A stretch of 46,818 bases of DNA from a virus: the IMG/VR virus record IMGVR_UViG_3300029263_000817, positions 1-46,818 of that record; one strand, given 5' to 3'. Below the pieces are notes generated by a model. The model searched no databases and was not told the DNA's origin. It saw only the letters and a list, made by a program, of their open reading frames with translations. A program made the translations under genes and the position numbers. Of the stretch, positions 12,714 to 27,273 are shown in pieces. Within the stretch, counting starts at the first letter, position 1. The number at the start of each line of letters is the position of its first letter.

Positions 12714-12753
12714 GAAATAAACAACCTATCTTTATGCTTCTTTATGTTTTAAC

Positions 12754-12761
12754 TATTTATA
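12754..12761 (-). promoter_or_regulatory. T4-type late promoter box for the giant fibre gene
   Basis: A perfect TATAAATA on the minus strand lies 40 nt upstream of the giant fibre ATG, at the end of the preceding small gene. This is the consensus late promoter of T4-like phages, which needs no -35 element. Confidence 0.75.
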
Positions 12762-12764
12762 TGT

Positions 12765-13001
12765 TTAAAAGGTGTCTCCACCATCAACAACTGCTTCTAC
12801 TATATGCTTTGTAGCTGTCCATCGATCTGTAGCGCTATTGTAAATGATCAAGGTTCCATCTGGAATACCTCCGGCACCAATAGCAGTATCACTCACATCA
12901 CGGAGGCTGTTTCTAATTTTAATTTCTTTGATAGCTGGAAGTGGTGTACCGACTTTGATGTTTTTAACGATAGTGCGGTTTGACGTAATTTTAATTGCCA
13001 T
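12765..13001 (-). CDS. Small fibre-associated structural protein
   Basis: A 78-aa protein placed between a 129-aa virion-type protein and the giant fibre. Its C-terminal half (GGIPDGTLIIYNSATDRW) is the kind of segment seen in phage fibre and adaptor proteins, where 'D-G-T-L-I-Y-N-S-T-D-R-W' precedes the fibre shaft. The start ATG at 13001 is preceded by AGGG that overlaps the TAG stop of the upstream gene, so the two are translationally linked. There are no cysteines and no signal or membrane segment. It may be a stand-alone version of a fibre N-terminal module; exact role unknown. Confidence 0.7.
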   Translation of the reverse strand: MAIKITSNRTIVKNIKVGTPLPAIKEIKIRNSLRDVSDTAIGAGGIPDGTLIIYNSATDRWTATKHIVEAVVDGGDTF

Positions 13002-13559: not shown

Positions 13560-14120
13560 CTAACTAATAAATATATCAACCGGAATAGCTAGTCTAAGAT
13601 TAGACTGATAGGTTTTTACTGAATGATACACAAATCCTGGCATAATTATTACTTCGCCTGTCTGAGGTGTATACTCAATAGGGTTAAACATTTCAGCTGT
13701 TTTACCAAAATAACCTCTGTTAGCATTTGCTCTTGGATCGTATGCTACTAGTTCTCCACCCTTATCTACTTCTTCAGCAAGTACATAAAACACTGCAGCA
13801 AATTGAGCTCCGGCATGATTATGAATATTCATTGAATATCCATTGCAAGATCCTGTTAACCAAGAACTAAATTGATAAGACATGTCATTTAGATCACTAT
13901 TAAATACTTCTTTAAAAAATTCTGAATATTTTTCTATAGCCAAATCTTTTAACAAAGGAATCTTATTCGTAAGTAAGCCACCATCGTATTCAGCCTGTGG
14001 TTTCATAACATTAGTATTAAGTAAAACCTCTTGAACTAATTCTTCACACTGATCTGAACTAATTTTAGTTCTATATATTGGTGTCGACCAGCACTGATTA
14101 ATACCAAATTTCAACATCAT
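13560..14120 (-). CDS. Phage-type putative 2OG-Fe(II) oxygenase (HxH variant)
   Basis: A 186-aa protein with the layout of the small 2OG-Fe(II) oxygenase family common in T4-like marine phages (PF13759-like). H100-N-H102 sits where HxD is usual, followed by FYVLAEEVDKGGELVAYDPR, then GEVIIMPGFVYHSV with H166, and R176 in LRLAIPVDIF for 2-oxoglutarate binding. These enzymes hydroxylate or desaturate substrates using Fe(II), O2 and 2OG. The substrate is unknown. It is the last gene of the enzyme cassette and overlaps the gene before it by 23 bp. AAGGA lies just before a double ATG, so the start may be 14120 or 14117. Family members also occur alone in phages, so membership of the modification system is uncertain. 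Confidence 0.8.
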   Translation of the reverse strand: MMLKFGINQCWSTPIYRTKISSDQCEELVQEVLLNTNVMKPQAEYDGGLLTNKIPLLKDLAIEKYSEFFKEVFNSDLNDMSYQFSSWLTGSCNGYSMNIHNHAGAQFAAVFYVLAEEVDKGGELVAYDPRANANRGYFGKTAEMFNPIEYTPQTGEVIIMPGFVYHSVKTYQSNLRLAIPVDIFIS

Positions 14121-14502
14121 AATATCCTTTTATGTCACCGACCATACCGTGAATTACCATCAACGGCCAATCTATATTGTTAAGTACTCTATCGTATATT
14201 TCTTTACTGTTTTCATATGTTTTAAAATGCGGATCATTACCGGCTAAAAGCATTGGATCATTTAACAGATCATAAAAGTCTTCGTTAAAATCTCTACTAA
14301 TCCAATAAGCATAACATATTGCTACAACATAGCTCTTAGCTGGATATAGCCATTCATCTACTTTCTCATTAAAGTGTAGAATAGCATTTTTAATAATGAC
14401 CTCTTGATTATCGTCAAAAACTATTTCTACTTTATTCAAATCATCTGTATGATCTTTATTTAATCTATGATAAACTTCTTGTTTAATCTTCCACTCTTGC
14501 AT
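14098..14502 (-). CDS. Uncharacterised cassette protein, 134 aa
   Basis: I do not recognise this protein. It has a run of aromatic residues (EWLYPAKSYVVAICYAYWISRDF) that could form one buried helix rather than a clear membrane segment. An acidic middle part and a C-terminal WPLMVIHGMVGDIKGYYDVEIWY follow. There is no cysteine pattern for metal or Fe-S binding beyond a single Cys. The ATG at 14502 overlaps the stop of the preceding gene as TAATG, so it is co-translated with the radical SAM genes upstream and with the oxygenase downstream. It may be an accessory or substrate-recognition factor; this rests on position only. Confidence 0.75.
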   Translation of the reverse strand: MQEWKIKQEVYHRLNKDHTDDLNKVEIVFDDNQEVIIKNAILHFNEKVDEWLYPAKSYVVAICYAYWISRDFNEDFYDLLNDPMLLAGNDPHFKTYENSKEIYDRVLNNIDWPLMVIHGMVGDIKGYYDVEIWY

Positions 14503-15242
14503 TAGCAATCATACTCCGATAATAATTGAACTTTATTTAAAAAATTGTAATAAGAACTTGTAATCTTATATTGGTTGTGGAAGAACACCTTTTTAGTTGT
14601 CTCCCAAAGATTTTTTTCTACTAATGGATAACCAAACGAAAATATAACTGCTTCATAATGTGTGTAACTTCTACGCATTTGAATGTTCCAAAACTTTGTT
14701 AGTTCCTCATCGGTGTACGGTTTATCTCTACGGTCTGTAATACTAGATTTTTCAAAGCTATTATCATCATATACTATATGCAATCTTATTCCATCTGCCC
14801 ACCACGGCAACTTTGTTGCTGGTCTTTCAACGGTATTAATTGAATTGTCGTACCAATGTATATTGCAATCTAATTTTGTAACTGCTTTTATGAAGTTAGT
14901 TTTTTGTTCTTTTGTATTAAAGACTACCCCTATATATCGGTATTTAGTATCACTGTGTCCTTGGCAACTAGTAAAGGTTAAATAGCCTTTATTATGTAGA
15001 GCTAACACTGCATCTTTTACACCACTTTCTAAATTGTTATCAATAATATTAGAATACTGACTAACGAAAGAACTAACGTGTTCGCCATGTTCGTCAACAA
15101 ATATCCACGTTCTCCCGTTAGAATTATATTTATTTCCTTTTTTAAACATAGCATAATGATGTCTATCCTCGGCCGTTTTTAATATAGGCAACTCTTCGGA
15201 TTGATATTGATACTCAACTTGTATTTCATATTGACTTTTCAT
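14502..15242 (-). CDS. Uncharacterised protein with SCQGH motif
   Basis: A 246-aa protein from the ATG at 15242, which overlaps the end of the preceding radical SAM gene by 17 bp. Around residues 80-100 it reads NKGYLTFTSCQGHSD followed by a strand YIGVVF. An 'SCxGH' motif after a 'GY-T' strand recurs in small phage and bacterial proteins of unknown role, and loosely recalls the SCSGR signature of Tyw3-type proteins. The rest is hydrophilic with many aromatic residues and no signal peptide. It could be an enzyme or binding partner in the cassette. I cannot assign a function. Confidence 0.75.
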   Translation of the reverse strand: MKSQYEIQVEYQYQSEELPILKTAEDRHHYAMFKKGNKYNSNGRTWIFVDEHGEHVSSFVSQYSNIIDNNLESGVKDAVLALHNKGYLTFTSCQGHSDTKYRYIGVVFNTKEQKTNFIKAVTKLDCNIHWYDNSINTVERPATKLPWWADGIRLHIVYDDNSFEKSSITDRRDKPYTDEELTKFWNIQMRRSYTHYEAVIFSFGYPLVEKNLWETTKKVFFHNQYKITSSYYNFLNKVQLLSEYDC

Positions 15243-16131
15243 GATACCAATCCAATAATCCCCTATATCCATTACAACTATTATCTAAATCTTTGACATA
15301 TCGATAATGCTCTGTTAAACAGTTTCCAAAATATGTACATGAAGCACATATAGGACTTATCATTTCTTCTTTTTCTTTGTTTGTCCAATCAATGTATTGT
15401 TCCCAAGAATCCAATTCAAGAAAGAATTCTTTATCCTCTCTATCAAATTCCAAGACGCCAAACTTTCCGTTAGGCGTGATATATATGTGATCATCTGAAA
15501 ATGCATTATATCGTCCTTTCATTGATTCTATAATTCTGTCTTCATTTACAAATTCAAACTTCATCTTGTCTTTTAACTTAAGCCACTTTATAACAAAATC
15601 TTCAAAATCTTTGTGGGTTACATTATGTGCATTTGCTTGATTAATTGAATACGGTTTAATTTCAACAGACGTAATTGACGAACACATATTCAACATATTA
15701 ATCATTTCAGATGCATCTTTTTCTAGCACCTTTGGAGAAGCTAAAACTAAAACTGCAATAGGCACAGTGCTCATTAACATGTTATTAAAGACAAGTTCTG
15801 ACTTTTCTCTTGCTTCAAAATCATATGATACAGAAAGATACACATCATCATCAAAGAAACCTGGATGCATCATAGAATAATTAGTATTGATGCTAATTTC
15901 ACCTGAATAATATTTTCTTATAATATCTTTAATGCCATAAAAATACGACTTTTTCATTGCACCAACTTCACCGCCATATAGGTCAATATGTTCTATATCT
16001 GGTACTTGAGATAACAACTCATCTAATTTATCAAATGAAATTTGTTTCTGATCACCAAGTTGCTTAGTAGATAGATAACAAAAATCACATCTAAAGTTAC
16101 AAAAATATGAAGGATTAACTGACACTATCAT
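15226..16131 (-). CDS. Radical SAM protein with short SPASM-like C-terminus
   Basis: A 301-aa protein. CNFRCDFC at residues 11-18 is the CxxxCxxC site that binds the catalytic [4Fe-4S] cluster and S-adenosylmethionine, and 'LYGGEVG' near residue 51 is the GGE-type SAM contact. Near the C-terminus C262-x2-C265-x5-C271 and C286 form a shortened SPASM/twitch set, likely holding one auxiliary cluster. Such proteins typically modify peptides. The gene follows a 2OG-Fe(II) oxygenase gene by 19 nt. The 301-aa length is short for SPASM enzymes (usually 350-450 aa), so its exact chemistry cannot be guessed. Confidence 0.9.
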   Translation of the reverse strand: MIVSVNPSYFCNFRCDFCYLSTKQLGDQKQISFDKLDELLSQVPDIEHIDLYGGEVGAMKKSYFYGIKDIIRKYYSGEISINTNYSMMHPGFFDDDVYLSVSYDFEAREKSELVFNNMLMSTVPIAVLVLASPKVLEKDASEMINMLNMCSSITSVEIKPYSINQANAHNVTHKDFEDFVIKWLKLKDKMKFEFVNEDRIIESMKGRYNAFSDDHIYITPNGKFGVLEFDREDKEFFLELDSWEQYIDWTNKEKEEMISPICASCTYFGNCLTEHYRYVKDLDNSCNGYRGLLDWYHEKSI

Positions 16132-16150
16132 TTTGTAGACCTAGGTAATT

Positions 16151-16684
16151 TCATAAAAGTTTAAAACCAAATCTAGCTGTATATCTTTCTATATTTTTCC
16201 AATCATAAGGCTCTATTTTATGTTCAACAGTTGGATTCAATTCATTAATAATTGCTAAATTTCCTTTCTTTGGATAGTAAAAGTATTCGTTATATTTATT
16301 TTTTACGCAAAGAGGACCAGTCTGTAATGTGTTAAAATAATATAGACAAATAAAATCTATGTCTTTATACATGCCATCAATATCATCACCACCAGTTTTG
16401 TCATAGTGGTATACAGTATTTCCATCATGTTGACCTTTATTTAATTTATGTTCAATCAACTCAACTGGTCCGAATTCAGGCTCAAGCAGTATGTTAGAAA
16501 TTATAGTTGCGGCATTAATTAGAATTGCATACTCAAATGGATAATTTTGCAATAGGAATTTCTTTGTTTGTACAAAATCATCTATAAGCCTTTCATCCTC
16601 AAATATATTAGTTTCTATATTGTCCATTAACTTAATAATATCTTTATTATTAACAACTATATGAAAATCATCTTTTAAATTCAT
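16151..16684 (-). CDS. 2OG-Fe(II) oxygenase-like protein C
   Basis: A 177-aa protein with H93-Y-D95, then FICLYYFN, a 'YYPKKGNLAIIN' turn, H155 in PTVEHKI and an arginine in RYTARFGF. This is the HxD...H...R order of prolyl-hydroxylase-type 2OG-Fe(II) oxygenases. It shares layout (HxD, hydrophobic YYxN, PKxGxL, EHK, R-x5-FxF) with the oxygenases at 17715-18209 and 18480-18986, so the three look like divergent copies. The ATG overlaps the stop of the upstream radical SAM gene (ATGA), suggesting a coupled radical SAM/oxygenase pair. Substrate unknown; a peptide in this cassette is the natural guess. Confidence 0.78.
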   Translation of the reverse strand: MNLKDDFHIVVNNKDIIKLMDNIETNIFEDERLIDDFVQTKKFLLQNYPFEYAILINAATIISNILLEPEFGPVELIEHKLNKGQHDGNTVYHYDKTGGDDIDGMYKDIDFICLYYFNTLQTGPLCVKNKYNEYFYYPKKGNLAIINELNPTVEHKIEPYDWKNIERYTARFGFKLL

Positions 16685-17715
16685 GCGTATTCTCTTATAT
16701 AAGGCGTGGGTTCTAGTTTTATATCGTTTGCTTTAATAATATCTAAAGCCAATGTCTTCATATGTTTACAATGATCTTCTACCATATTATGCTGTTTTAA
16801 ATCTTTAATAGTTTTTTTACATCCATTACAAATTTCAAACATTGGACAAGTGTAACATGCATTTTTTAAACTAAGCAAACTTAAATCTGTTGCAAGAGGA
16901 GTTGAAAACCCACCGCTCATTTCGTAATCAAAATCAATAGCCTTATCCAAATCATCACCAAACGCACCACACGAATAGTAGTCACCTTCAGGTTGAAGTG
17001 TTCGAATACCAGAATCGCACGTTCTTGTTTGTGGACATATAGTAGCTTCTCCTCTTAATCGTACCATCATTTGCTGTGTATTATGTTCCCAAGCACTTAA
17101 ACCAGCTTTCCATATTTCAACATAACGTTCATATATTTTTGATAACTGATAAGGCGCAGACTGAGAACCTGATGCCATAGCATAATTTACTTTACATACT
17201 ACATCCATTTTCTTTGCAAGTTCAACTGTCTTAATATGTGTATCTTCATTCTCTTCAACAATGACTGCTATGAATGAGGGTCTATACCCAACATGTTCGA
17301 GCACTGCATCTGAACACTTCCAAAAATCTTCTTCTGTAAATTCACTATAATCACCTTTTAATCTTCCACCACCATATTGAAATGATGTAGCTACACCAAC
17401 TCGAGGATGGTTAAAAAGTTCTTTCCATTTCATTGGTTTCATAAGAAACGGATATAAATTTGTTGTAAGTGATATTGATGCAGGCAGATCATGCTTATCA
17501 AGATACTCTATAATCTTCCAATAATAATTTGGCTTCATCATTAATGGATCACCACCATTAACAATAATTGTTTGAGTCTCTGGAAAACGTTTTAAAAACT
17601 TAAATATCTTATTTAGATCAAGAGTAGCAGTATTGTCTTCAAACGTAATTTTAGATGATGAACAAAACGAACATTTGAAATTACATAGTTCGGTTGGTTT
17701 AACAATCAAGTCCAT
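16681..17715 (-). CDS. Radical SAM/SPASM domain protein
   Basis: A 344-aa protein. C11, C15 and C18 form CNFKCSFC, and 'VNGGDP' near residue 52 is the SAM-binding GGD/E loop. The C-terminal part carries C227, C233 and C249, then C287-x2-C290-x5-C296-x2-C299 and C316. This is a full SPASM cysteine set for two auxiliary Fe-S clusters, as in peptide-modifying enzymes such as sactipeptide and quinohemoprotein maturases. It starts with a TAATG overlap after one oxygenase gene and ends with an ATGA overlap into the next. No RiPP-recognition (RRE) N-terminal domain is visible, since the protein begins directly with the barrel. Confidence 0.92.
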   Translation of the reverse strand: MDLIVKPTELCNFKCSFCSSSKITFEDNTATLDLNKIFKFLKRFPETQTIIVNGGDPLMMKPNYYWKIIEYLDKHDLPASISLTTNLYPFLMKPMKWKELFNHPRVGVATSFQYGGGRLKGDYSEFTEEDFWKCSDAVLEHVGYRPSFIAVIVEENEDTHIKTVELAKKMDVVCKVNYAMASGSQSAPYQLSKIYERYVEIWKAGLSAWEHNTQQMMVRLRGEATICPQTRTCDSGIRTLQPEGDYYSCGAFGDDLDKAIDFDYEMSGGFSTPLATDLSLLSLKNACYTCPMFEICNGCKKTIKDLKQHNMVEDHCKHMKTLALDIIKANDIKLEPTPYIREYA

Positions 17716-18209
17716 TACACATAAAAACCAAAATTACAAACTGCGCGATTTTCATTTGTGTAGTTGACTTTATGTTCAACATACAATTCTTGAGATCCCA
17801 TTAAGAGTAATCCCCTTTTAGGTTTTATTTTTCCAGTTTCTTCGCCATTAACTCTAAAACATATTTCTCCATTATTTATTACATCATTTAAGTAATACAT
17901 AAAAAATAAATTTGGGCCTTCGACTAAATCATTATGCCATTCCAAAGAATCAGTCTCAGTTGAACTCCATATATTATTATAACCTTTAGTTGAATTATTA
18001 AAATACTTATCAACGTAATTATCTTTTATATAATCATGAACTGGTCCCAAATCTATTTTTTCAGGCGGAGTATATACTCCGCTGCTGTCTAAGTTAGCAG
18101 TCCATGAACTAATATGAGGAACATCGCTTAATAAATGTAAGATCTCTTTATCATTAAAAATCTTATATCCAGACATTAATAGCTCTGGAACTAAAATACC
18201 AACATTCAT
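17715..18209 (-). CDS. 2OG-Fe(II) oxygenase-like protein B
   Basis: A 164-aa protein with H92-N-D94 in EWHNDLVEGPNLFFMYYLND, then GEICF, KPKRGLLLM, H146 in YVEHKV and R155 in NRAVCNFGF. These are the iron ligands and the 2OG-binding arginine of a small double-stranded beta-helix oxygenase, likely a hydroxylase. It is clearly related to the 168-aa oxygenase two genes upstream. The start ATG overlaps the stop of the small gene before it (ATGA). Reaction inferred from the family; substrate unknown. Confidence 0.82.
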   Translation of the reverse strand: MNVGILVPELLMSGYKIFNDKEILHLLSDVPHISSWTANLDSSGVYTPPEKIDLGPVHDYIKDNYVDKYFNNSTKGYNNIWSSTETDSLEWHNDLVEGPNLFFMYYLNDVINNGEICFRVNGEETGKIKPKRGLLLMGSQELYVEHKVNYTNENRAVCNFGFYV

Positions 18210-18505
18210 CCGTTTGGCCTATCATAACCATGTTTATTAATACACTCAACTGTATGCGGCGTTTCATCTATTGATTTAACACCATAGTGTTCTATTATTT
18301 CTCTATTACATTGTCTAATTTCTTCTTTTAACATATTTGAATATGGTTCAAGATTATCAATCATTTTCATATATTGTTCATACTTATCGTTATCATCCTC
18401 AAAATCATGCAATTTAGTAATCCAAAGATTGTACAATTCTGCTGTTAAATCTCTTTCTTTACAGAGAGTTTCTTTTTTATCAACTATTATTTGTATTAAA
18501 GTCAA
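18206..18505 (-). CDS. Small charged helical protein (start uncertain)
   Basis: A small, mostly helical, charged protein (LIQIIVDKKETLCKERDLTAE...) ending in TVECINKHGYDRPNG. The frame is open further upstream inside the oxygenase gene. I chose TTG at 18505 because GAAGGG lies 9 nt before it and this avoids a long overlap; 99 aa result. It is sandwiched between two oxygenase genes and coupled to the next one by an ATGA overlap. It could be a helper or coiled-coil linker. It is not recognised, and the start is a guess. Confidence 0.5.
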   Translation of the reverse strand: MTLIQIIVDKKETLCKERDLTAELYNLWITKLHDFEDDNDKYEQYMKMIDNLEPYSNMLKEEIRQCNREIIEHYGVKSIDETPHTVECINKHGYDRPNG

Positions 18506-18986
18506 ACGAACATACCCTTCGTTGTATTGAAGATTTGCCAGCCTTATGCCAAAATCCACGTATATTAGATACCATGAATAAATCACCTGCTTTTGGCTGA
18601 AACGAAATTGTTTCTGATTTATTCCATTTAAAATCTATATTGCCACCAGTCTCAGCAAATGTGTCGTCTAAATAATATAAGAAAAACACATCATATTTTT
18701 CAAACATGTCGGTGTGCCAACCCTGGTTATCTTTATCAACACCGTCCCATATTAAATATTTATTAAAAACGGCTTTTGGCCATTCTGGTAAAATGTATTT
18801 ATTGTATAAGTATTGACCAAACATATCAAGTTTAGTAGCAAGTAATGGATCAACATCTTGTTCACCATTATCTCTTGCTCTTTCTTCTGTGTTTAAAAGC
18901 TTAAAATTATCTGCTCCAATTAATGTCAACCCCTCAGCTTCTTGCAATTTAACATATCCCTTTGTGTGAATATCTTTTATATACAT
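18480..18986 (-). CDS. 2OG-Fe(II) oxygenase-like protein A
   Basis: A 168-aa protein with H91-T-D93 in GWHTDMFEKYDVFFLYYLDD, GGNIDF, an 'ISFQPKAGDLFMVSN' turn, H147 in GFWHKAG and R156/R157 before VCSFDF. This is a textbook HxD...H...R set for prolyl-4-hydroxylase-like enzymes. A strong GGAGGT sits 9 nt before the ATG at 18986, which overlaps the end of the B12-type radical SAM gene by 10 bp. It is probably a hydroxylase acting on the same substrate as its neighbours, but this is inferred from context. Confidence 0.85.
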   Translation of the reverse strand: MYIKDIHTKGYVKLQEAEGLTLIGADNFKLLNTEERARDNGEQDVDPLLATKLDMFGQYLYNKYILPEWPKAVFNKYLIWDGVDKDNQGWHTDMFEKYDVFFLYYLDDTFAETGGNIDFKWNKSETISFQPKAGDLFMVSNIRGFWHKAGKSSIQRRVCSFDFNTNNS

Positions 18987-20647
18987 ATTTTGCTTACCTC
19001 CGACATAATTATAATTTTATTTTTTTCTAAAAACTCATGTATAGTTTCAGTTCTAAATTTATCTCCTAATTGTCTTATGCTTTTTGGTGGTGAATTTGGA
19101 TTAAAAATATCTCTGATCTCATAGTATATATCATCCCAGTTATCTAACTCTATTATAATTCTGTATGCTTCTTTAGCAAAAACCGGAGGTGTTAAATTAT
19201 TTTCAAACGCTGGATAAAAATGTTGTAGTAAGTAATTACCTGCATTATTCATAAACCACATCTCATGCATTTCCTCAGTTGTAAATGAAAAGCATGACGC
19301 CATGGTTCTAAAATATGATCTTTTATCTTTATATAGTTCACTCCAACTATCAGTCCCTTGCTCATCTACAATATCAGTAAATACTTCTACTGTTCTAATA
19401 TCATGTTTAATTTTGTATTCTTGGGAATTAAGTCTAGAATCAGGTAAAAACATATAGTCATGCCGGTACGATCCAAAAGCTTGAAAGTTCCATATGTAAT
19501 CCATTTCTTTATAGAAATCATCTATTGTAGATCCGGGCATAGCTAAAATTAATTCTAATGATGGAATAGGAAAACCATTTTCGCTGCATCTTTTGTTAAT
19601 ATACTTACTTAATTCTAACTTATCTTCTGAATTCAAATCAACTCTTTCTGCCAATTTCATAGCAATATCAGAGCTGCTTTGAATTGATACCGTTGGAACA
19701 ATAGAAATCATTGAAGTCTCTTTCCACATATCATCGCCATCTTTTGAGTTAGGTGATCTTTGATCTGTGCCAACTACTTCAAACCATCTATCAATTAATC
19801 TTTTTCTTCTATCTAAATCCTTTGACTTCATAGTTGATATATCAGTTAGATTAAATCCTTTGTTCCAAGCATATGCAAATATTTCTATATCTCTATCTTC
19901 AAATGCACCAAAGTTTGCATCAGTTAAATATGCATCTCGATATCCGGCTTTGATCATAGCATCAATGTCTCGTTTTACAATACTTAAATCCTTTTTATAA
20001 ATTTTAGTATTAATACCTCCACCCCATTCGCAAAACACACATTTATAAGGACATCCTCTAGTTGTTTCAAGAATAATAAATGGCTCCATATTATTTTCTC
20101 GGGCGTATGAGAGAGCCTTTGTTAAATACTCAGAATGCTCTTCATATACAGAATAATCTTCTTTGCTAATATTATGAATATCACCAATACTAGATCTTAA
20201 CTCCCAAGAAATAGTTTTAGGATCCAGCCGGTCTTCAATGTATTGATCGATTAGATCTCTCATGAATATTTCACCTGGCTTAGTTGGCTGACATATATAA
20301 TCGTATTGAGTTCTATTTGCTAATAACTCAGGATCATTAGTTCCTATATGTGGCCCACCTAATACTAATAATTTTTCAGGATGTTTTTGTTTTATCTTAG
20401 AAGCCATCCCATCACAAATGACATAGTTCCAAGCATATGAAGAAAACATTATTACATCAGCAGATATTACCTGCTCAATTGCTTCATCAAACGATTGATA
20501 AGTATTCCATTTATAAGAAGATTCTAACCATTCTATTTGATCATTGTATTTTCCAAAATGCTTATAATAGCTTTGCGCTATTAAATAAGTCATATTATTG
20601 GCTAATGACCAATCAGCATGCGGTGGATTGATAAAGGCTATCTGCAT
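18977..20647 (-). CDS. B12-binding-type radical SAM protein
   Basis: A 556-aa protein from the ATG at 20647, preceded by AGAGA; an upstream in-frame extension to 20755 is unlikely. Residues 1-130 read as a cobalamin-binding-type Rossmann domain (MQIAFINPPHADW, VIMFSSYAWN, LLVLGGPHIGTND). The barrel follows with TTRGCPYKCVFCEW, the CxxxCxxC being at residues 199-206. This two-domain order is that of B12-dependent radical SAM enzymes, many of which methylate unactivated carbons in RiPPs and other natural products. The classic DxHxxG motif is absent, as in many of this class. The C-terminal about 200 residues are not assigned. It overlaps the upstream radical SAM gene by 35 bp. Confidence 0.9.
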   Translation of the reverse strand: MQIAFINPPHADWSLANNMTYLIAQSYYKHFGKYNDQIEWLESSYKWNTYQSFDEAIEQVISADVIMFSSYAWNYVICDGMASKIKQKHPEKLLVLGGPHIGTNDPELLANRTQYDYICQPTKPGEIFMRDLIDQYIEDRLDPKTISWELRSSIGDIHNISKEDYSVYEEHSEYLTKALSYARENNMEPFIILETTRGCPYKCVFCEWGGGINTKIYKKDLSIVKRDIDAMIKAGYRDAYLTDANFGAFEDRDIEIFAYAWNKGFNLTDISTMKSKDLDRRKRLIDRWFEVVGTDQRSPNSKDGDDMWKETSMISIVPTVSIQSSSDIAMKLAERVDLNSEDKLELSKYINKRCSENGFPIPSLELILAMPGSTIDDFYKEMDYIWNFQAFGSYRHDYMFLPDSRLNSQEYKIKHDIRTVEVFTDIVDEQGTDSWSELYKDKRSYFRTMASCFSFTTEEMHEMWFMNNAGNYLLQHFYPAFENNLTPPVFAKEAYRIIIELDNWDDIYYEIRDIFNPNSPPKSIRQLGDKFRTETIHEFLEKNKIIIMSEVSKICI

Positions 20648-21632
20648 ATTTAAAAGTCTCTTTAAAGACACATTCATCCATGTCTTGTTCAATGTGTTTA
20701 TAATCTTGTTTAATAAAACAACTAAATGGGCATCGAGCAAAATACTCACACTCAAAGCAATTATATTTAGTCATAAAGTTTTCAACTATTTTAGGCCCGC
20801 CAAGTTCTTCAGTTTGAGCTTCTTTTAAGAATACTGCTCCAGAACATCCAGTAGGAACCGATCCATCTGGCATTACGGTAAGAGAATTACCTCTTGTGCA
20901 AATCATTTTATTTTGCATTTTTTGATTAACGAAATGATCTACATTTAAACATTTAGAGTATTTAGATACAAGTAGTTTATTAAACTCAAAAAGAGTTCTT
21001 TCACTTGGCATTAATTTTCTTGAGTTTTTTACTGATGGCAAAAATGAATCAAAGTCACATGGATATGTATTATAAAGGTACGTGAATAAGTTATCGCCTC
21101 TTGTAATTTTTGCTATATTCTGTTTTGTAGCAACTAATGAAATCATTTCAATCTTATTTTTATATGTTCCAATATTTGAAACAAAAATATCATGTGCTTT
21201 AGGGGTAAATCTACCAGCTGGATCATAACTTACAGAGATAGTTAAATCATTATGTTCTAAAAAATCCATTACCATATCGGACTTTGTAAAGCATAAATTA
21301 GTTATAAAATTTATATGTACATCTGGTTCTGTTTGTGTTGTAATGGCATCAATAAAGTCTTGATATATTTCTAGGAAACCTTTATCTATCCATTCGTCTT
21401 GAAAGAGTTCTCCACCCATTAAATGTAATTTATAAGCCTGAGTTCTTCTATTATTGTTGATCCATTCTACAATCTGAGGAACTTTTGCCATGATAGAATC
21501 ACGGTCAGCGCCTTCTATTGAATTATGATCTTGAGGACAAAAGACACATTGAAGATTACAGTGCTCAAATAAACAGCATACAATCTCACCATAAGTTGTT
21601 ATTTTGTTTTCTAATATATCATATATAGACAT
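20613..21632 (-). CDS. Radical SAM/SPASM domain protein
   Basis: A 339-aa protein with CNLQCVFC at residues 25-32, GGELF near residue 73, C245 and C263, and a canonical SPASM motif C292-x2-C295-x5-C301-x3-C305 ending with C321. The enzyme should hold one SAM cluster and two auxiliary clusters. It follows the unknown 382-aa gene by one base and is the first radical SAM gene after the candidate substrate. A short N-terminal extension (about 17 residues) precedes the barrel, too short for an RRE. Peptide modification is inferred from family and neighbours. Confidence 0.92.
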   Translation of the reverse strand: MSIYDILENKITTYGEIVCCLFEHCNLQCVFCPQDHNSIEGADRDSIMAKVPQIVEWINNNRRTQAYKLHLMGGELFQDEWIDKGFLEIYQDFIDAITTQTEPDVHINFITNLCFTKSDMVMDFLEHNDLTISVSYDPAGRFTPKAHDIFVSNIGTYKNKIEMISLVATKQNIAKITRGDNLFTYLYNTYPCDFDSFLPSVKNSRKLMPSERTLFEFNKLLVSKYSKCLNVDHFVNQKMQNKMICTRGNSLTVMPDGSVPTGCSGAVFLKEAQTEELGGPKIVENFMTKYNCFECEYFARCPFSCFIKQDYKHIEQDMDECVFKETFKYADSLYQSTAC

Positions 21633-21633
21633 A

Positions 21634-22782
21634 TTACACTGTTATATATCTACTCAGAAAGGCTTTATCAGCACTAGATTTTGCATCCAATAAAGAATGT
21701 ATTAAATAATGGTTTACTGTTTCTAGTTCTAAAGAGAAAAATGAACCCGATTCATTATCATATGTAGATTCCATTTCAATAAGACTATCTAGTAAAGTAT
21801 CAGTAAATTCTCCAGTTATACATTCTATGAAATCTAATTTATTTACATCACTTTTTCCAGCATCATATAATTTAAATTGTGCCCAGCCATCAGCAATAAT
21901 TTGTGTAAATTTTCTAATTGTTACTAAATCTGAAGCTGAAATATTATCAAACAAAACGTTATTATTGCTTGAAGCCGCACTCATATATTTTGATTTCCAC
22001 ATATCATCTTTAATAAAAACTTGAGCGATGTCACTAGTATCATCTAAGATACTACTAATATTATCAAAATTATATGATGCACTTAACTTAAGTTTAGCTG
22101 AAAGTTTTTTAGTTAAGAAATGCTGAAAGAATACTTCTTTTAACTCAAGCAAATATTTTTCTAGATCTTTTTTTAATAATATTTTTATTACATTTTTTAG
22201 TTCTGCTTTTGTAGATTTATCATGTAAATAATTTGCAAATAAATGTTCTACACCAATCGTGCTAATATATTTTTTAACAAAAGTTTTTCGTTTGGTAGAT
22301 GACCCTGCTTGTACACTATCATAAATAGTATCAAAATTTGTTAATTTTAAAATTTCTTCAGCACCGCCGCCTGCGCCATTACCAGAAAAACGACCTCTAA
22401 AGAATACATTAAACTTAAATGCATGTGCTTGCAGAAGTGATTTAACAGAATCTTTAGTCGGTGTTTTTAGAATATGTTTATACCATGTTGACATTATAAA
22501 TTGCAATGAATCTTCATCACAATATATCATAACTCTTTTATTTGTAACATCACAGTGATCTGCTAATTTAGTAAATAAATCTATTGCAGTTGGATATGTT
22601 ACATCTTTTGATCCTAGTATTGCACTCCATTCTAATGAATATGATATAAGTTTACCTGAAGATATTCTTTGCAAATCTTCTAAAACATCTAATCCATGAT
22701 TTTGTGATACTACAATCCGATCATATCCCAAATCAATGATCTTATCTGTTGTTACATAAATCTTCTTAAACAGATGTATCAT
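21634..22782 (-). CDS. Uncharacterised cassette protein, 382 aa
   Basis: I do not recognise this protein. It starts MIHLFKKIYVTTDKIIDLGYDR with an alternating strand pattern and has a strand-like 'RVMIYCDEDSLQFIM'. A Gly-rich loop GNGAGGGAEE (about residues 134-143) follows, then a Lys/Leu-rich helical middle, ending in a helical C-terminal third. No signal peptide, membrane segment or clear metal motif is seen. It is coupled to the 215-aa gene by an ATGA overlap and comes two genes after the candidate substrate. That position is where leader-binding, export or scaffold proteins often sit in peptide-modification operons, but nothing in the sequence proves this. Confidence 0.8.
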   Translation of the reverse strand: MIHLFKKIYVTTDKIIDLGYDRIVVSQNHGLDVLEDLQRISSGKLISYSLEWSAILGSKDVTYPTAIDLFTKLADHCDVTNKRVMIYCDEDSLQFIMSTWYKHILKTPTKDSVKSLLQAHAFKFNVFFRGRFSGNGAGGGAEEILKLTNFDTIYDSVQAGSSTKRKTFVKKYISTIGVEHLFANYLHDKSTKAELKNVIKILLKKDLEKYLLELKEVFFQHFLTKKLSAKLKLSASYNFDNISSILDDTSDIAQVFIKDDMWKSKYMSAASSNNNVLFDNISASDLVTIRKFTQIIADGWAQFKLYDAGKSDVNKLDFIECITGEFTDTLLDSLIEMESTYDNESGSFFSLELETVNHYLIHSLLDAKSSADKAFLSRYITV

Positions 22783-23426
22783 AACTGTTCTCCTGTGGAA
22801 ATTGCGCTTGTTAGTAAAAACATTGGGTTATTAACATTCGCCCAATAGCTAAATAAATTATTTCCTTTAAACATATATTCATTAAAGTATGATGTATAAT
22901 ATGTTTTATGGTGTTCAATTACATTGGCATAAAATAAATAAAAGCTTTCATATTTTAGCAGATTTACAAAATTTATTCCAGTTAAATCTTTTGTGTCATC
23001 TTCTGGAAATGATTTAACATAATCTTTTAATTCATCGCATTCAATGGTGTACAAATTGTAAATTGAAAGTGAATCTAATTTCTTTGTCCAAGTAGTAAGT
23101 ATTTCAACGTTATCATCAATAAAATCTTTTTCTGTTAACTCACTAATACCTTTCATCTGTAATAATAAACTAATTACTCTTTCTTCAAGAATAGGAACAC
23201 TTATAATAAAATTAGCTAAAAGATATTCTCTAGTAAGATCATCAAAATCTTTCTGATTAGTAAAACCAATATTACATGGCAATTCTAGATTACTAAGATA
23301 TGTTAATAGTTTTGTTCCCTGCAATTGTGAATTATCATAATCAACCATGTAAAAAGTTTGATCATCTTCAAAATACAATTTCAAATCTTCAATACTAAAT
23401 GGTGCAGTAACATCAATAACTTTCAT
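22779..23426 (-). CDS. Uncharacterised cassette protein, 215 aa
   Basis: The start is the ATG at 23426, which overlaps the stop of the candidate substrate gene (ATGA). The preceding GAGAGGAAGAAG, a strong ribosome site, lies in the codons for the RGRR end of the substrate. The protein is acidic, rich in Leu, Tyr and Phe, and mostly helical in look, with no Cys motif. An N-terminal strand-helix (MKVIDVTAPFSIEDLKLYFEDD) and FYMVDYDN follow. Tight coupling to the substrate gene suggests a 1:1 partner such as a chaperone or recognition protein. This is inference; the family is unknown to me. Confidence 0.8.
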   Translation of the reverse strand: MKVIDVTAPFSIEDLKLYFEDDQTFYMVDYDNSQLQGTKLLTYLSNLELPCNIGFTNQKDFDDLTREYLLANFIISVPILEERVISLLLQMKGISELTEKDFIDDNVEILTTWTKKLDSLSIYNLYTIECDELKDYVKSFPEDDTKDLTGINFVNLLKYESFYLFYANVIEHHKTYYTSYFNEYMFKGNNLFSYWANVNNPMFLLTSAISTGEQL

Positions 23427-23986
23427 CTTCTTCCTCTCGAGCCGTGACAACTAGAATGGCAACTAGAATGGCAAATATTAATATTTACAGTAACAGTATT
23501 AGAAACTAAACTATTAAAACGGGTCCGTAAGTCTGTAAATTTAGATTCAAGCCCAGCTGAAGTAATTTGACTGCCAGAAGTTAAAGTAACTCCAGCTGCA
23601 GATAACGTTTGTATATAACTACTACTTAAATATGCTTTTTGTGTTTGATTAAAAATTTGTCCAGGATTAGCATATGTTCCATCATTACCACCAGGGCCTG
23701 TTACTGTTCGTATTGCATTTAAATTTCTAATTTGACTGTATGCTGCAGTTTCATTTTCAATTGCAGTATTAATAGTAGAAGCATCAATTGGATTTCCATT
23801 TATAGTAGATCCAGAAATTCCAATGCTTCGTCCAGAAGTCGTTCCACCAAAATAGCTTGTAGCAAATCCACTAAACGGAACTGAGTTGGTACCCCAAACA
23901 ATTCCGGAATTCGCAGTGGCCGGTGCATAATCTGCAAATCTATCTATTATATTCTGCGCATTAATTGGATTTGTTAATGTAGCCAT
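23423..23986 (-). CDS. Candidate modified substrate (RiPP-precursor-like) with CHSS-CHSS-CHGS-RGRR tail
   Basis: A 187-aa protein. Residues 1-170 are Ala/Thr/Ser/Asn-rich, with no cysteine and no histidine. They begin MATLTNPINAQNIIDRFADY and contain WGTNSVPF and Gly-rich turns, a style typical of phage virion proteins. Residues 172-187 then read CHSSCHSSCHGSRGRR, so all three Cys (172, 176, 180) and all three His (173, 177, 181) sit four residues apart in the tail. It lies inside a run of radical SAM and oxygenase genes, and has its own late promoter box 26 nt before the ATG. The tail recalls the His-Xaa-Ser repeats that radical SAM enzymes act on in the Hxs system, but the enzyme set is not clearly Hxs. 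It may instead be a metal-binding tip. Role inferred. Confidence 0.8.
   Translation of the reverse strand: MATLTNPINAQNIIDRFADYAPATANSGIVWGTNSVPFSGFATSYFGGTTSGRSIGISGSTINGNPIDASTINTAIENETAAYSQIRNLNAIRTVTGPGGNDGTYANPGQIFNQTQKAYLSSSYIQTLSAAGVTLTSGSQITSAGLESKFTDLRTRFNSLVSNTVTVNINICHSSCHSSCHGSRGRR
23438..23473 (-). repeat. Tandem 12-bp repeat coding CHSS units
   Basis: Two identical copies of TGCCATTCTAGT (23450-23473 read on the minus strand) are followed by a diverged third copy, TGTCACGGCTCG (23438-23449). They code the CHSS, CHSS and CHGS units at the end of the candidate substrate. Confidence 0.9.
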
Positions 23987-24011
23987 TTCATTCCTCTTTC
24001 GTTATATACTG

Positions 24012-24019
24012 TATTTATA
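24012..24019 (-). promoter_or_regulatory. T4-type late promoter box before the candidate substrate
   Basis: Perfect TATAAATA on the minus strand, overlapping the TAA stop of the upstream radical SAM gene and ending 26 nt before the ATG of the 187-aa protein. It is the only perfect late box I found inside the enzyme cassette. Confidence 0.72.
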
Positions 24020-25034
24020 CATGTTTTGCGAGTTCCTTCATTAAACTTTTTGGGGCGCCACAAATATCTCCATCCCATCCTAATTGATGGCAATCACCTC
24101 CACAGAATCTAGAAACCGGACATTGTAAACAATTGGGATTACGCATTTTTTCCTCTAATATAGTACGTATTCTTTTTGGACTTTTCAATAGGGTATTAAT
24201 AGAATCATCAAGACTTCCAAAAGCTTGTTCTGGTGCGCTGTTTGGACATCCAGCAATAGTTCCATCGCCATTTATAGTAAATAGTTTTTGTTCACAATCT
24301 CTACAAAACGTTCCACATGTAGTCATAGTCTTTTCAAACTTAGCATAGACATTTTCTAGAAAGTCATTTTCAAACCAATCTCGTGCGCCATGCTCTTCAC
24401 TTTGCATATGCATTTTTAAAAAGTATGCGTCGAGTTCTGCATTACTTGGAAAGATGTCCGATGCTTTTCTTGCACTACCGTTATTAGTTAGTCTTTCCAG
24501 TGAAACTTCTTGTACACCAAGTCTACGACACCATCTCAATAATGTTATAGGATCTTTAGCAAGCGTATCCTTTGTAAGACTAATAAACAAACGGATAGTA
24601 ACCCCATCAGCTAAAAGAGTTTTTACATTTTTATGCCAGAGATTGTATTGGTTTTTATTTTCAAATCTAATTTTACGATCCCATGATGTACCTAGTCTAT
24701 TATTAAGAGGACCTTTAATAAAATCCATATGCTGATCTTTTAATTTGAAAACTAAATTAGTTGTAGCACCCCATGTCATTTGATCCCATAGACCATCACA
24801 TGCGTCATACACTTTTCGCATCTGACCAACCGGAACTAAGAAAGGTTCACCGCCATGAAATTCCATATGAATAGAATCATGCGGTGATGGTTTTTCTTCA
24901 CGGAATCTTTGAATCCAGTCAATTAGTTTAGAAGGATTCCAATAAATCTTTTGTCCGCTTCTTCCACTTGTAAAACAATGTGCGCAGTTAAGCTGACATG
25001 TTTCTGTGGTCTTGAGATACATCAGCCAATTCAT
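24015..25034 (-). CDS. Radical SAM/SPASM domain protein
   Basis: A 339-aa protein with CQLNCAHC at residues 13-20, HGGEPFL near residue 60 (SAM contact), C240/C244/C247 and C263 around 'GDGTIAGC', then a perfect SPASM C302-x2-C305-x5-C311-x3-C315 and C325. The set is that of anaerobic sulfatase-maturase-like, peptide-modifying enzymes. It sits directly before the candidate substrate and overlaps the cupin gene by 47 bp. The ATG at 25034 is preceded by AGAGGA at about 11 nt; an alternative ATG is at 25022. Given its place next to the substrate it is the best candidate for the enzyme that acts on the CHSS tail, though this is inferred. Confidence 0.94.
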   Translation of the reverse strand: MNWLMYLKTTETCQLNCAHCFTSGRSGQKIYWNPSKLIDWIQRFREEKPSPHDSIHMEFHGGEPFLVPVGQMRKVYDACDGLWDQMTWGATTNLVFKLKDQHMDFIKGPLNNRLGTSWDRKIRFENKNQYNLWHKNVKTLLADGVTIRLFISLTKDTLAKDPITLLRWCRRLGVQEVSLERLTNNGSARKASDIFPSNAELDAYFLKMHMQSEEHGARDWFENDFLENVYAKFEKTMTTCGTFCRDCEQKLFTINGDGTIAGCPNSAPEQAFGSLDDSINTLLKSPKRIRTILEEKMRNPNCLQCPVSRFCGGDCHQLGWDGDICGAPKSLMKELAKHV

Positions 25035-25515
25035 TATTAATTTTATCCTCTGTGTAGTTTTCTAAACCAAAGCTTAGCGTTAACGCTTCATCTTCATTTA
25101 AAGCTTGATGAGGGGTGTTAGCTGGTATATGTATATATTCACCTGGGCGAATGATTACATGATTACTTTCAATTATTAAAGACTTAGATCCTTCACAGCA
25201 ATATATAACAACGTCATCCGGATCAGTGTGCATATCAAAAGAATACGAACCAGCATTTGCTAAAAACAAATGGCAAGTAACATGTGGACTATGTACTAAA
25301 TCTGTTTTTATTTTCCAACAATATTCATATATTTCTGAATTAAAATTTTCCATTCTTTCAATTTTGATAGAATGGTTTTCACTTTGAGCTTTACAGAAAT
25401 GTCTAAATCCAGTAACAAGATGTTCGCGACCTTGCATGTCAATGGCGTATACCATATTCTGTTCGTACATATGATTTGATGTAAGTGCAGAAACTATCCG
25501 AGATCTATTAATCAT
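24988..25515 (-). CDS. Cupin/JmjC-like Fe(II) oxygenase
   Basis: A 175-aa protein whose middle and C-terminal parts read SYSFDMHTDPDDVVIYCCEGSKSLIIESNHVII-RPGEYIHIPANTPHQAL. H96-x-D98 and H136 match the iron ligands of cupin_8/JmjC-type 2OG-Fe(II) hydroxylases, and the 'PGEYIHIPANTPHQA' turn is characteristic. Ribosomal-oxygenase relatives hydroxylate Arg or His in proteins. The protein is short, so an N-terminal substrate domain is missing or very small. It is the first gene of the cassette. The predicted transcription start of the sigma70-like promoter falls at or next to its ATG, so it may be translated leaderless or from the internal ATG at residue 16. Confidence 0.82.
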   Translation of the reverse strand: MINRSRIVSALTSNHMYEQNMVYAIDMQGREHLVTGFRHFCKAQSENHSIKIERMENFNSEIYEYCWKIKTDLVHSPHVTCHLFLANAGSYSFDMHTDPDDVVIYCCEGSKSLIIESNHVIIRPGEYIHIPANTPHQALNEDEALTLSFGLENYTEDKINNELADVSQDHRNMSA

Positions 25516-25557: not shown

Positions 25558-27273
25558 TTACACTTTTAACACACATTCTATCAATTTTTCTTCAGCTACA
25601 ACAGATGATTCTAATGCAATACCTACTATTGCATGTCCCGGAAATTCTCTACCTGCGCATCCATTATGATGAGCATATACTGGATCACCCTTATTAACAG
25701 CGCCAACTATTCTAACTGGAACGCGTCCTTTAAGAGCAAGTGCCTGACCATCTATACTTGCGTTCATCAAATATGCAGGATCAGCCGAAACTACACCCAT
25801 AGGAATACCATCACCAAGGCACCGTGTTGTTTCTTCAGTTTCACTTGATGATACCATCATTACAGTTCCAATTACATGCTCTTCACTTGTAGTATATTTT
25901 TCCGCAAGGTCAGCATAGTTTGCAGACGTTGCTCTACCAGCAAAAGTTCCTGCAGTAAGTGTATGTGTTGATGGATTATACATTAAGTGGCCGTTGTCTT
26001 GATCAATATAAGGCCTTTGATAAGCGCTGCCGTTATTATCACTAAACAATACTTGATAATTTACGTTATCATTTTTCTCATCTACATTAATATTATCAGC
26101 GTTGGTTGAATTAGATACATCACCACTTGCAAGAGTAACTACTCCGGCATTACTGATTGTACAATCACCACTTAACGTTGCTGCAGTAAAGCCAGCACCA
26201 TTACCGATTAAAATTTGTGCATTTCCTACAGCAATATCTGATGGTACGCCTGCCGTGCTTGCTGCTCTTACTTTAACTGTATTTCCTGCCATATTGGCAA
26301 GCTTAACATTTGTTACTTTACCGGCACTTATTTTATCAGTGGTAACTGCATTTGCCGCGAGCATATCCGCATATACTAATGTTTCTTCAACTTCACCTAC
26401 ACTTGTTCTACCAAGTACTCTATTTGCAGTTACTATATCTTGTATTTTTGTGTATGTGACTGCATCATTTGCTATTTTTGCAGTAGTTACATTAATGTCT
26501 TTGATATTATCAGTTTCTACTCCGTCAGTAGCAATCATAGCTGTTACGACTTGTACTTCTTCAATATCACCTGCTGTAGTTTTACCAAGTACTCTATTTG
26601 CAGTTACTATCTCTTGCATTCTAGCATACGTAACAGCGTCTTCTGCAATCATAAGTGTTTGAACCTGCAGGTCGGAAACAGATCCAGAATTTCCTCGTGC
26701 AACAACTCTATTTGCAGAAACTGTAAGGTTAGTTGGATCGGCTGCTGCTGCAGTTGCATTCACTTTAACAGTGTGTGCTGCCATATGAGAAAGCATGGCA
26801 TCCGTAATAGCTTCAGCAGAAATACTTAAACCATCTGCGTCTTGTGTTAAACCAGAACCAGCCGCAACTGAAAACGCACCTCCAGAATCAGTTACACTAT
26901 TTTTTCCGATACCGTTTCCGGCTGAATAATTTGTAGTTGCAGGTAATCCAAGACTAAATGTACCATCACCATCACTTTTAAGAAAAAATGCAGAGTTTGT
27001 GCTATCCCCCGTGACATTCATATTACGGAGAGATATAACCCCAGTTGCAATATGATGTTCTTTAATCTCATTAGAATCAATAAATCCTTGATTAAATGCA
27101 CGATTTAAAGCTTGTACAATATCAGAATCATGTCCAGTAAATCCCGAAGATCCGTCAGGAAAGCCAGTCTTTTGAAGATTATCTAAATCTCCAATTTGGT
27201 GCGCGATTGAATTGGTCTTGACGCGCCAACCGTTAATTGTATCACTTAGGTTTACAATAATTTCTCTAGCCAT
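25558..27273 (-). CDS. Tail-fibre-like structural protein with C-terminal ADLAEKY domain
   Basis: A 571-aa protein. The N-terminus (MAREIIVNLSDTINGWRVKTN) resembles fibre attachment regions of marine T4-like phages. The middle has about three related units of roughly 65 residues around VTANRVLG(K/R)T--G-VEE and DAVTYxxIQxI, typical of a fibre shaft. The last about 115 residues begin ADLAEKYTTSEEH, then TVMMVSSSETEETTRCLGDGIPMGVVSADPAYLMN and LKGRVPVRIVGAVNKGDPVYA. This is a beta domain seen at the end of many cyanophage tail-fibre-like proteins. The gene overlaps the 76-aa gene before it by 8 bp. The exact fibre role is inferred. Confidence 0.85.
   Translation of the reverse strand: MAREIIVNLSDTINGWRVKTNSIAHQIGDLDNLQKTGFPDGSSGFTGHDSDIVQALNRAFNQGFIDSNEIKEHHIATGVISLRNMNVTGDSTNSAFFLKSDGDGTFSLGLPATTNYSAGNGIGKNSVTDSGGAFSVAAGSGLTQDADGLSISAEAITDAMLSHMAAHTVKVNATAAAADPTNLTVSANRVVARGNSGSVSDLQVQTLMIAEDAVTYARMQEIVTANRVLGKTTAGDIEEVQVVTAMIATDGVETDNIKDINVTTAKIANDAVTYTKIQDIVTANRVLGRTSVGEVEETLVYADMLAANAVTTDKISAGKVTNVKLANMAGNTVKVRAASTAGVPSDIAVGNAQILIGNGAGFTAATLSGDCTISNAGVVTLASGDVSNSTNADNINVDEKNDNVNYQVLFSDNNGSAYQRPYIDQDNGHLMYNPSTHTLTAGTFAGRATSANYADLAEKYTTSEEHVIGTVMMVSSSETEETTRCLGDGIPMGVVSADPAYLMNASIDGQALALKGRVPVRIVGAVNKGDPVYAHHNGCAGREFPGHAIVGIALESSVVAEEKLIECVLKV

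Follow-up and report, generated by a model that had tools for sequence, protein, structure and literature searches.

The cassette and its genomic setting

We analyzed a putative protein modification cassette located at positions 13560–25515 of the IMG/VR virus record IMGVR_UViG_3300029263_000817, the whole of which (46,818 bases) is referred to here as the window. All genes of the cassette lie on the minus strand of the window, and its GC content is 27–32%, versus 34–43% in the surrounding DNA. The setting is a T4-like baseplate/tail-fibre block, in which baseplate wedge proteins, hub/lysozyme proteins and a tail fibre were matched. The cassette encodes a 187-amino-acid (aa) protein with a Cys/His-rich C-terminal tail, termed TAIL, together with radical S-adenosylmethionine (radical SAM) proteins, putative 2-oxoglutarate (2OG)-Fe(II) oxygenases and a cupin. 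Its features are given below, with expect (E) values for family matches.

25558–27273, minus strand: FIB, tail-fibre-type protein of 571 aa, upstream of the cassette (phrog_19602 tail fiber, 1e-8)
24988–25515, minus strand: Cup, cupin/JmjC_2-like protein with HTD...H residues (PF08007, 1e-9; PF07883, 2e-9)
24015–25034, minus strand: rA, radical SAM/SPASM protein (phrog_1802, 3e-60; TIGR04085 SPASM; DynA/anSME/PapB/HxsB-like)
23423–23986, minus strand: TAIL, putative substrate of 187 aa, with a folded, variable body and a conserved tail
23426–23473, minus strand: C-terminus of TAIL, CHSSCHSSCHGSRGRR (residues 172–187), three C-H-x-S units plus RxRR; putative modification site
22779–23426, minus strand: protein X, of no known function (phrog_20767), directly 3' of the tail gene
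21634–22782, minus strand: protein Y, 382 aa, no Pfam or NCBIfam family matched
20613–21632, minus strand: rB, radical SAM/SPASM-like protein with a full-looking Cys set (phrog_1802, 1e-29)
18977–20647, minus strand: rC, B12-binding radical SAM protein of 556 aa (NF033712, 1e-27, below cut-off; PF02310, PF04055)
18480–18986, minus strand: oxygenase a, 2OG-Fe(II), HTD...H...R (PF13640, 8e-5)
18206–18586, minus strand: u126, small protein of no known family, with homologues by inspection in loci L175 and L176
17715–18209, minus strand: oxygenase b (Ob), 2OG-Fe(II), HND...H...R (PF13640, 0.0015)
16681–17715, minus strand: rD, radical SAM/SPASM protein with a full SPASM Cys set (phrog_1802, 3e-56; DynA, 4e-14, far below cut-off)
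16151–16684, minus strand: oxygenase c (Oc), putative 2OG, from HYD...H...R residues alone
15226–16131, minus strand: rE, a short radical SAM protein whose C-terminal Cys set is partial (phrog_1802, 2e-30; PF04055; Cys positions)
14502–15272, minus strand: u256, open reading frame (ORF) of no known family, no Pfam match
14098–14508, minus strand: u136, small protein of no known family that recurs in system copies of phages and Bdellovibrionota
13560–14120, minus strand: oxygenase d, 2OG-Fe(II) (PF13759, 3e-9; phrog_81)

This inventory agrees with the counts of a first-pass annotation of the window: five radical SAM proteins, four 2OG-type oxygenases, one cupin/JmjC-like protein, now matched by JmjC_2 and cupin Pfam models, and five proteins without a known family in addition to the Cys/His-tailed protein at 23423–23986. 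Of the radical SAM proteins, rA and rD have full SPASM Cys sets, rB has a full-looking one, rE is short and rC is of the B12 type; HxD...H...R residues were seen in three of the oxygenases and HNH...H...R in the fourth. The oxygenase at 16151–16684, to which no Pfam 2OG model matches, was assigned from its residues alone. The close gene junctions that had been described were present as well, at −4 nucleotides (nt) for X/Y, u126/Ob and rD/Oc, −1 for Ob/rD and +1 for Y/rB. The gene coordinates stood, apart from the starts of X and rC, for which we preferred ATG 23426 (215 aa) and ATG 20647 (556 aa) over TTG. Adjoining the 3' end of the cassette is a 4237-aa open-ended ORF (3–12713) that leaves the record.

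A conserved C-terminal tail accompanies rA in viruses

The C-terminal 16-mer of TAIL, CHSSCHSSCHGSRGRR, has the form (CHxS)3-RxRR and recurs on unrelated protein bodies in IMG/VR. A degenerate DNA pattern for the tail, which did not require a stop codon, was found in at least 120 IMG/VR stretches. Among the matches listed, 153 motif-bearing ORFs had their stop exactly 16 residues past the first Cys, with two exceptions (one chance ORF and one ORF cut by a contig end), and the tail-protein bodies were approximately 110–290 aa long and often occurred as two tandem copies. Alignment of 49 tail proteins gave a mean column identity of 24%, with C172, H173, S175, C176, H177, S179, C180, H181, R184, R186 and R187 invariant. 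As the pattern query itself fixes C, H, S, R13 and R15, invariance was judged on loci found through rA or X.

When IMG/VR was searched by rA alone, the best 80 loci of 360 relatives were kept, six of which end within 310 nt of rA; the tail gene was just downstream of rA in every one of the remaining 74 viral loci. Sixty of these tails have CHxS units and 14 have at least one CHxN unit, and in none do C, H or R13/R15/R16 vary, while x is free and the fourth position of the unit is S or N (A twice). Gene content was counted in 56 loci with long flanks: X and the tail gene were present in all 56, the cupin (directly upstream of rA, as in the window) and a fibre gene in 54 each, and Y in 50. Four or five radical SAM genes were found in 55/56 of these loci and three in the other, and at least one oxygenase in 55/56. 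The C-terminal domain of FIB (~130 aa) is conserved next to the system in nearly all of its copies.

Among 50,697 named phage records, a tblastn search with rA found seven records, comprising Agrobacterium phage Atu_ph07 (twice), Sinorhizobium phage Phosso, Pseudomonas phage pPa_SNUABM_DT01 and Burkholderia phages SURPRISE13, FLC6 and FLC8, and searches with X and rD found exactly the same seven. In the five named-phage loci examined, the gene 3' of cupin-rA ends in CHxSCHxSCHx[S/A]RxRR and has a different body. The full TAIL protein had no tblastn match in the named phages, owing to its divergent body and short tail, and its relatives were reached via rA instead; the X alignment had no stretch sufficiently conserved to serve as an IMG/VR query. 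In the Burkholderia jumbo phage loci L004 (21406–22583) and L005 (21319–22532), two genes annotated as dihydrofolate reductase lie inside the cassette.

Twenty-seven tail-bearing viral records had no rA in the stretch taken, and 19 of them carry a full-length rA elsewhere on the record. Several of the others are short fragments, and L069 has other radical SAM proteins, of the CxxxCxGC type. This locus (5361–12884) has a second architecture, with a fibre gene, two tandem tail genes, several CxxxCxGC radical SAM proteins that Pfam barely recognises, X and Y; it was likewise seen in L007, L018, L027, L039, L067 and L118, with up to approximately ten radical SAM genes per system.

The first-pass annotation had set co-occurrence with the tailed protein as a test beforehand, and this co-occurrence was found in 74/74 viral loci and in the 15/15 Bdellovibrionota genomes described below. 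A relative with rA or X and enough flank that lacked a tailed neighbour was sought as the refuting case, and none was found. Since dozens of divergent phages share the tail and the order of the genes, the cassette is not a product of chance, and these sequence comparisons support its reading as a modification system. Co-conservation, the invariance of the tail on divergent bodies and the gene neighbourhood, in which rA lies immediately upstream of the tail gene, argue that the tail is very probably the substrate of the cassette enzymes.

In an AlphaFold model, the TAIL body is ordered, with a mean predicted local distance difference test (pLDDT) score of 85, and the last 16 residues are disordered (pLDDT 51–58), as would be expected of an accessible substrate. 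Foldseek comparison of the body with the PDB gave no match, and comparison with BFVD returned known tail proteins and three proteins of Myoviridae sp. ctijX18 (A0A8S5USJ8, A0A8S5USJ7 and A0A8S5USV2; 504–660 aa), whose predicted fold resembles the TAIL body.

The system in Bdellovibrionota

Scanning of 84,980 prokaryote genomes with the tail pattern gave 44 matches, most of them by chance or not C-terminal, and 12 real tail loci, several of which are in Bdellovibrionota. A phage-only system was ruled out, since a contig with the tail also bears ribosomal protein S20 and other housekeeping genes. X was present in 15/291 Bdellovibrionota genomes, with a tail gene nearby in all 15, and was absent from plasmids. 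The sub-order rB-rC-2OG-u126 is identical in the window, L175 and L176, so that u126 is found in Bdellovibrionota too, 3' of rB-rC-2OG. In a tree of rA, bacterial sequences lie apart from nearly all phage ones, with the viral L095 among them, and the direction of transfer is not readable from it. L095 (8092–9679) and L016 are IMG/VR contigs, and L095, whose rA groups with Bdellovibrionota, is a misclassified bacterial fragment or else a phage that has exchanged the system with Bdellovibrionota.

The tails of Bdellovibrionota are natural variants, comprising CHTNCHGSCHGARGRR, CHNSCHSACHNSRGRR, CHSACHDNCHSSRGRR, CHSNCHSNCHGSRGRR, CHSNHCSHSNHGSRGRR, CHGNFPPPCHGSRGRR, CHTNVPTPPPCHASRGRR, CHSNCYTPPPKSRSRR and CHSSHSSHSSHSSRGRR. 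Each has one or more C-H-x-[S/N/A] units and ends in [S/A]-R-x-R-R; H-x-[S/N] and RxRR are kept, the Cys and the number of repeats change, and the Cys is dispensable in some units. The tail of L279 (4310–4918), CHSSHSSHSSHSSRGRR, consists of pure His-x-Ser repeats with one Cys, and is the closest to the His-Xaa-Ser idea.

This variation bears on a different explanation of the tail, namely that it is a metal-binding tip at the end of a fibre or spike, with Zn, Fe or Cu held by Cys and His and the radical SAM enzymes only adjusting these ligands. Fibre and spike tips that hold metal are known, and each tail of the window's type offers three Cys and three His. Modified ribosomal peptides that have His crosslinks and bind copper are reported (PMC10206099). 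However, the number of ligands is not constant, as natural tails have 1–4 His and 1–3 Cys, whereas S/N and RxRR, both of them poor ligands, are kept, and a plain metal site needs no three to five radical SAM enzymes. We therefore consider a metal-binding tip unlikely.

Association with attachment devices

The reading of the tail as a modified part of an attachment device draws on its neighbours. Phage copies of the system adjoin a tail-fibre gene, and in six Bdellovibrionota loci the neighbour is a type IV pseudopilin bearing a Peptidase_S74 domain (E 8e-13 to 8e-17), a domain that acts as a chaperone of phage fibres. These S74 pseudopilins are located as follows.

L175, 6655–7692
L176, 629–1921
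L275, 11132–12325
L276, 284–1525
L280, 13956–15143
L281, 13683–14783

The N_methyl model scored above its cut-off in four of them, weakly in L276, and was not reported in L175. Apparently, these proteins represent a pilus tip made from phage fibre parts. The same six loci also adjoin a protein of 184–209 aa. Bdellovibrio itself is known to use S74-bearing phage-like fibres for prey contact (PMC10769870).

For Atu_ph07, virion analysis by electrospray ionization tandem mass spectrometry places most virion proteins in three clusters of coding sequences (CDS), CDS 31–76, CDS 170–215 and CDS 284–329 (PMC6102473). The CDS numbers match those of the record (gp198 portal, gp181 baseplate), which makes the tail protein, gp170 (YP_009611835.1), exactly the first of the second cluster. 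The tail protein is thus likely to be part of a virion or pilus device, and the cassette probably serves specifically in the post-translational maturation of a single protein of a device for attachment to bacteria.

It had been left open in the first-pass annotation whether the target is a virion protein or a peptide released in the infected cell, and a virion or surface protein fits better, since no leader-type precursor, transporter or peptidase family is recognised in the cassette, the tail sits on a folded protein of 120–310 aa, and the Atu_ph07 cluster starts at the tail gene. A released ribosomally synthesized and post-translationally modified peptide (RiPP), antibacterial or signalling and cut from the body in the infected cell, would agree with the presence of one conserved C-terminal core alongside radical SAM/SPASM enzymes, and a host enzyme could serve for leader removal and export. 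Nevertheless, RxRR is always the protein's own C-terminus, and a folded body of ~110–290 aa is far from a leader peptide, which makes a released product highly improbable. Equally improbable is a cassette whose radical SAM genes produce a small molecule or act on another target, such as a host surface sugar, nucleotide or tRNA, with the tail protein a mere neighbour. In favour of this, phage radical SAM genes do have other roles, the module of phage CP220 lying with sugar transferases and an amidinotransferase, and radical SAM core motifs give weak pVip matches. Against it, these PADLOC pVip matches reach no more than 30 bits, and the tail, with its invariant motif on unrelated bodies, is always adjacent in phages and chromosomes.

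Enzymes and proposed chemistry

In alignment, rA contains CxxxCxxC plus eight further invariant Cys, which constitute a full SPASM set, and it scores 35 bits against TIGR04085 SPASM (cut-off 27). The solved structures closest to it include those of anaerobic sulfatase maturases as well as other radical SAM proteins. For both rA and rD, DynA is the nearest NCBIfam model, with E values of 1e-11 to 1e-14 at approximately a tenth of the cut-off score, and the GrrM, AmcB, YhhB, XyeB and FxsB models gave at most 30 bits, versus cut-offs of 310–450. By its NF033712 match, also below cut-off, rC is a relative of the KedN5-like methyltransferase. An NCBIfam search of TAIL, X and Y yielded no match; the AlphaFold 2 model of X has a pLDDT of 95, and its best PDB match (Z 3.4) is uninformative.

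In the triceptide class, SPASM enzymes connect an aromatic residue with the beta carbon of the residue at i+2; with HaaB and YhhB the bond starts from C2 of His, and with MscB it runs from Phe to the Ser beta carbon (PMC11002830). We hypothesize that the SPASM enzymes of the cassette would act on the flexible 16-residue tail, rA first and then rB, rD and rE, with H-x-[S/N] units as the substrate, usually as C-H-x-[S/N] three times and closed by [S/A]-R-x-R-R. The core reaction would be an i,i+2 crosslink, joining His with the Ser/Asn beta carbon or else Ser/Asn with the His that follows. We propose this because H alternates with S/N over the length of the tail, while x is free and S can stand in for N, as would be expected of such a crosslink, and because there are SPASM precedents for His; by this analogy the crosslink is a tentative assignment, to which we give somewhat less than an even chance. 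X and Y, which are constantly present beside the tail, may be partners of the SPASM enzymes, in recognition or as a scaffold. Given the JmjC_2 match of the cupin and the presence of 2OG and B12 proteins, we suggest that the cupin/JmjC-like protein, the 2OG oxygenases and the B12 radical SAM protein would contribute hydroxylation or methylation as variable extras. Once stiffened, the tail would be used in contacting the surface of the target cell, and we regard such an adhesion role of the modified tail as evenly balanced. It is possible, though we lean slightly against it, that T4-like and jumbo phages and predatory Bdellovibrionota share a maturation system in which the radical SAM bank makes a rigid, multiply crosslinked His/Ser(Asn)/Cys fibre or pilus tip that grips or breaches the envelope.

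Several observations weigh against a dedicated maturation system for an attachment protein. No modified product has been seen, and the cassette enzymes score far below the curated cut-offs of every cyclophane maturase family. Up to ten radical SAM genes per system seems more than a three-unit tail needs, and in L277 the tail (CHSNCYTPPPKSRSRR) has a single H-x-N unit left. For Atu_ph07, the virion assignment of gp170 comes from the range of its cluster. Finally, two of the 184–209-aa proteins of Bdellovibrionota match the C-terminal domain of the phage FIB protein only weakly (E ~1e-3).

Novelty and implications

We know of no phage virion protein that is matured by radical SAM chemistry. No description of virion modification by phage radical SAM/RiPP enzymes was found in the searchable literature, a search that subscription papers lay outside. 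The jumbo-phage papers found list such genes and say no more of them (PMC8066314). The system would represent a new kind, since its proteins are far below the cut-offs of known peptide-maturase families and the papers found only list its genes; its chemistry is inferred.

If our reading is correct, this virion protein would be the first known to be matured by radical SAM enzymes, viruses and bacterial predators would have exchanged the system, and the attachment machine would be common to phages and predatory bacteria. The radical SAM, 2OG and cupin genes that are common in marine and jumbo phages, so far listed as auxiliary metabolic genes or as hypothetical, would be part of this machine, which would offer a new handle on victim recognition or breaching by phages and predators. 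The 16-residue tail would provide a directly testable substrate for enzymes with likely new crosslinking chemistry, and the natural motif variants (1–4 units, S/N, with or without Cys) would be useful for enzymology.

Comparison with known systems

As in canonical RiPP systems, a ribosomal precursor with a conserved core lies beside the enzymes, in all 74 viral loci and all 15 genomes. The system shares SPASM radical SAM enzymes with the triceptide systems (XncB, OscB, MscB, HaaB, YhhB), which have repeated aromatic-x-x units with a free middle residue and among which His- and Ser/Asn-containing motifs are known (PMC11002830); the H-x-[S/N] units, with their variable x, conform to this pattern. 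Whereas triceptides derive from leader-bearing peptide precursors, usually with one radical SAM enzyme, the motif here is at the very C-terminus of a folded, probable virion or surface protein.

The Hxs system (HxsA, B, C and D), reportedly described by Haft and Basu, has His-Xaa-Ser repeats, as in the L279 tail, and more than one radical SAM enzyme. The present system differs in the Cys before most His, the RxRR end and its presence in phages; no NCBIfam match to HxsA or HxsD was found among TAIL, X and Y, and HxsB (37.6 of 370 bits) and HxsC (28.9 of 267.9 bits) were below their cut-offs. Of the dynobactin/darobactin maturases (DynA, DarE), DynA is the nearest model, with different substrates, and is among the few His-crosslinking enzymes (PMC11002830). 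Resemblance to prokaryotic viperin was slight, with at most 26 bits for NF038283 (cut-off 180), and PADLOC gave nothing beyond weak viperin core matches (pVip at most 30 bits).

Campylobacter phage CP220 has 11 radical SAM proteins (PMC2853527), and the CP220/CPt10 module is likewise phage-borne, with several radical SAM genes and no known function. In FN667788.1 (L282–L284), the neighbours of the CP220 radical SAM genes are sugar transferases and an amidinotransferase. CP220 was ruled out as the same system for the stretches scanned, in which tails, X, Y, the cupin and an rC homologue are all lacking. The earlier statement that no phage system of such a make-up has been described is corrected on two points: phages with multiple radical SAM genes were already known, and the system extends beyond phages. 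In the host-recognition cluster of pelagimyophages, radical SAM cassettes beside tail fibres are noted as variable content (PMC7029224); the accessible passages give gene content only and propose no substrate or function.

The mosaic adhesive trimer (MAT) fibres of Bdellovibrio likewise use S74 phage-fibre parts for prey contact, and the accessible passages describe no radical SAM maturation or Cys/His tail (PMC10769870). In the six Bdellovibrionota loci the S74 domain is present in the neighbouring surface protein, where, in contrast to MAT fibres, it is carried on a type IV pseudopilin; the neighbours have pseudopilin N-termini (N_methyl) in place of the conserved beta-rich domain that follows the signal peptide in MAT fibres.

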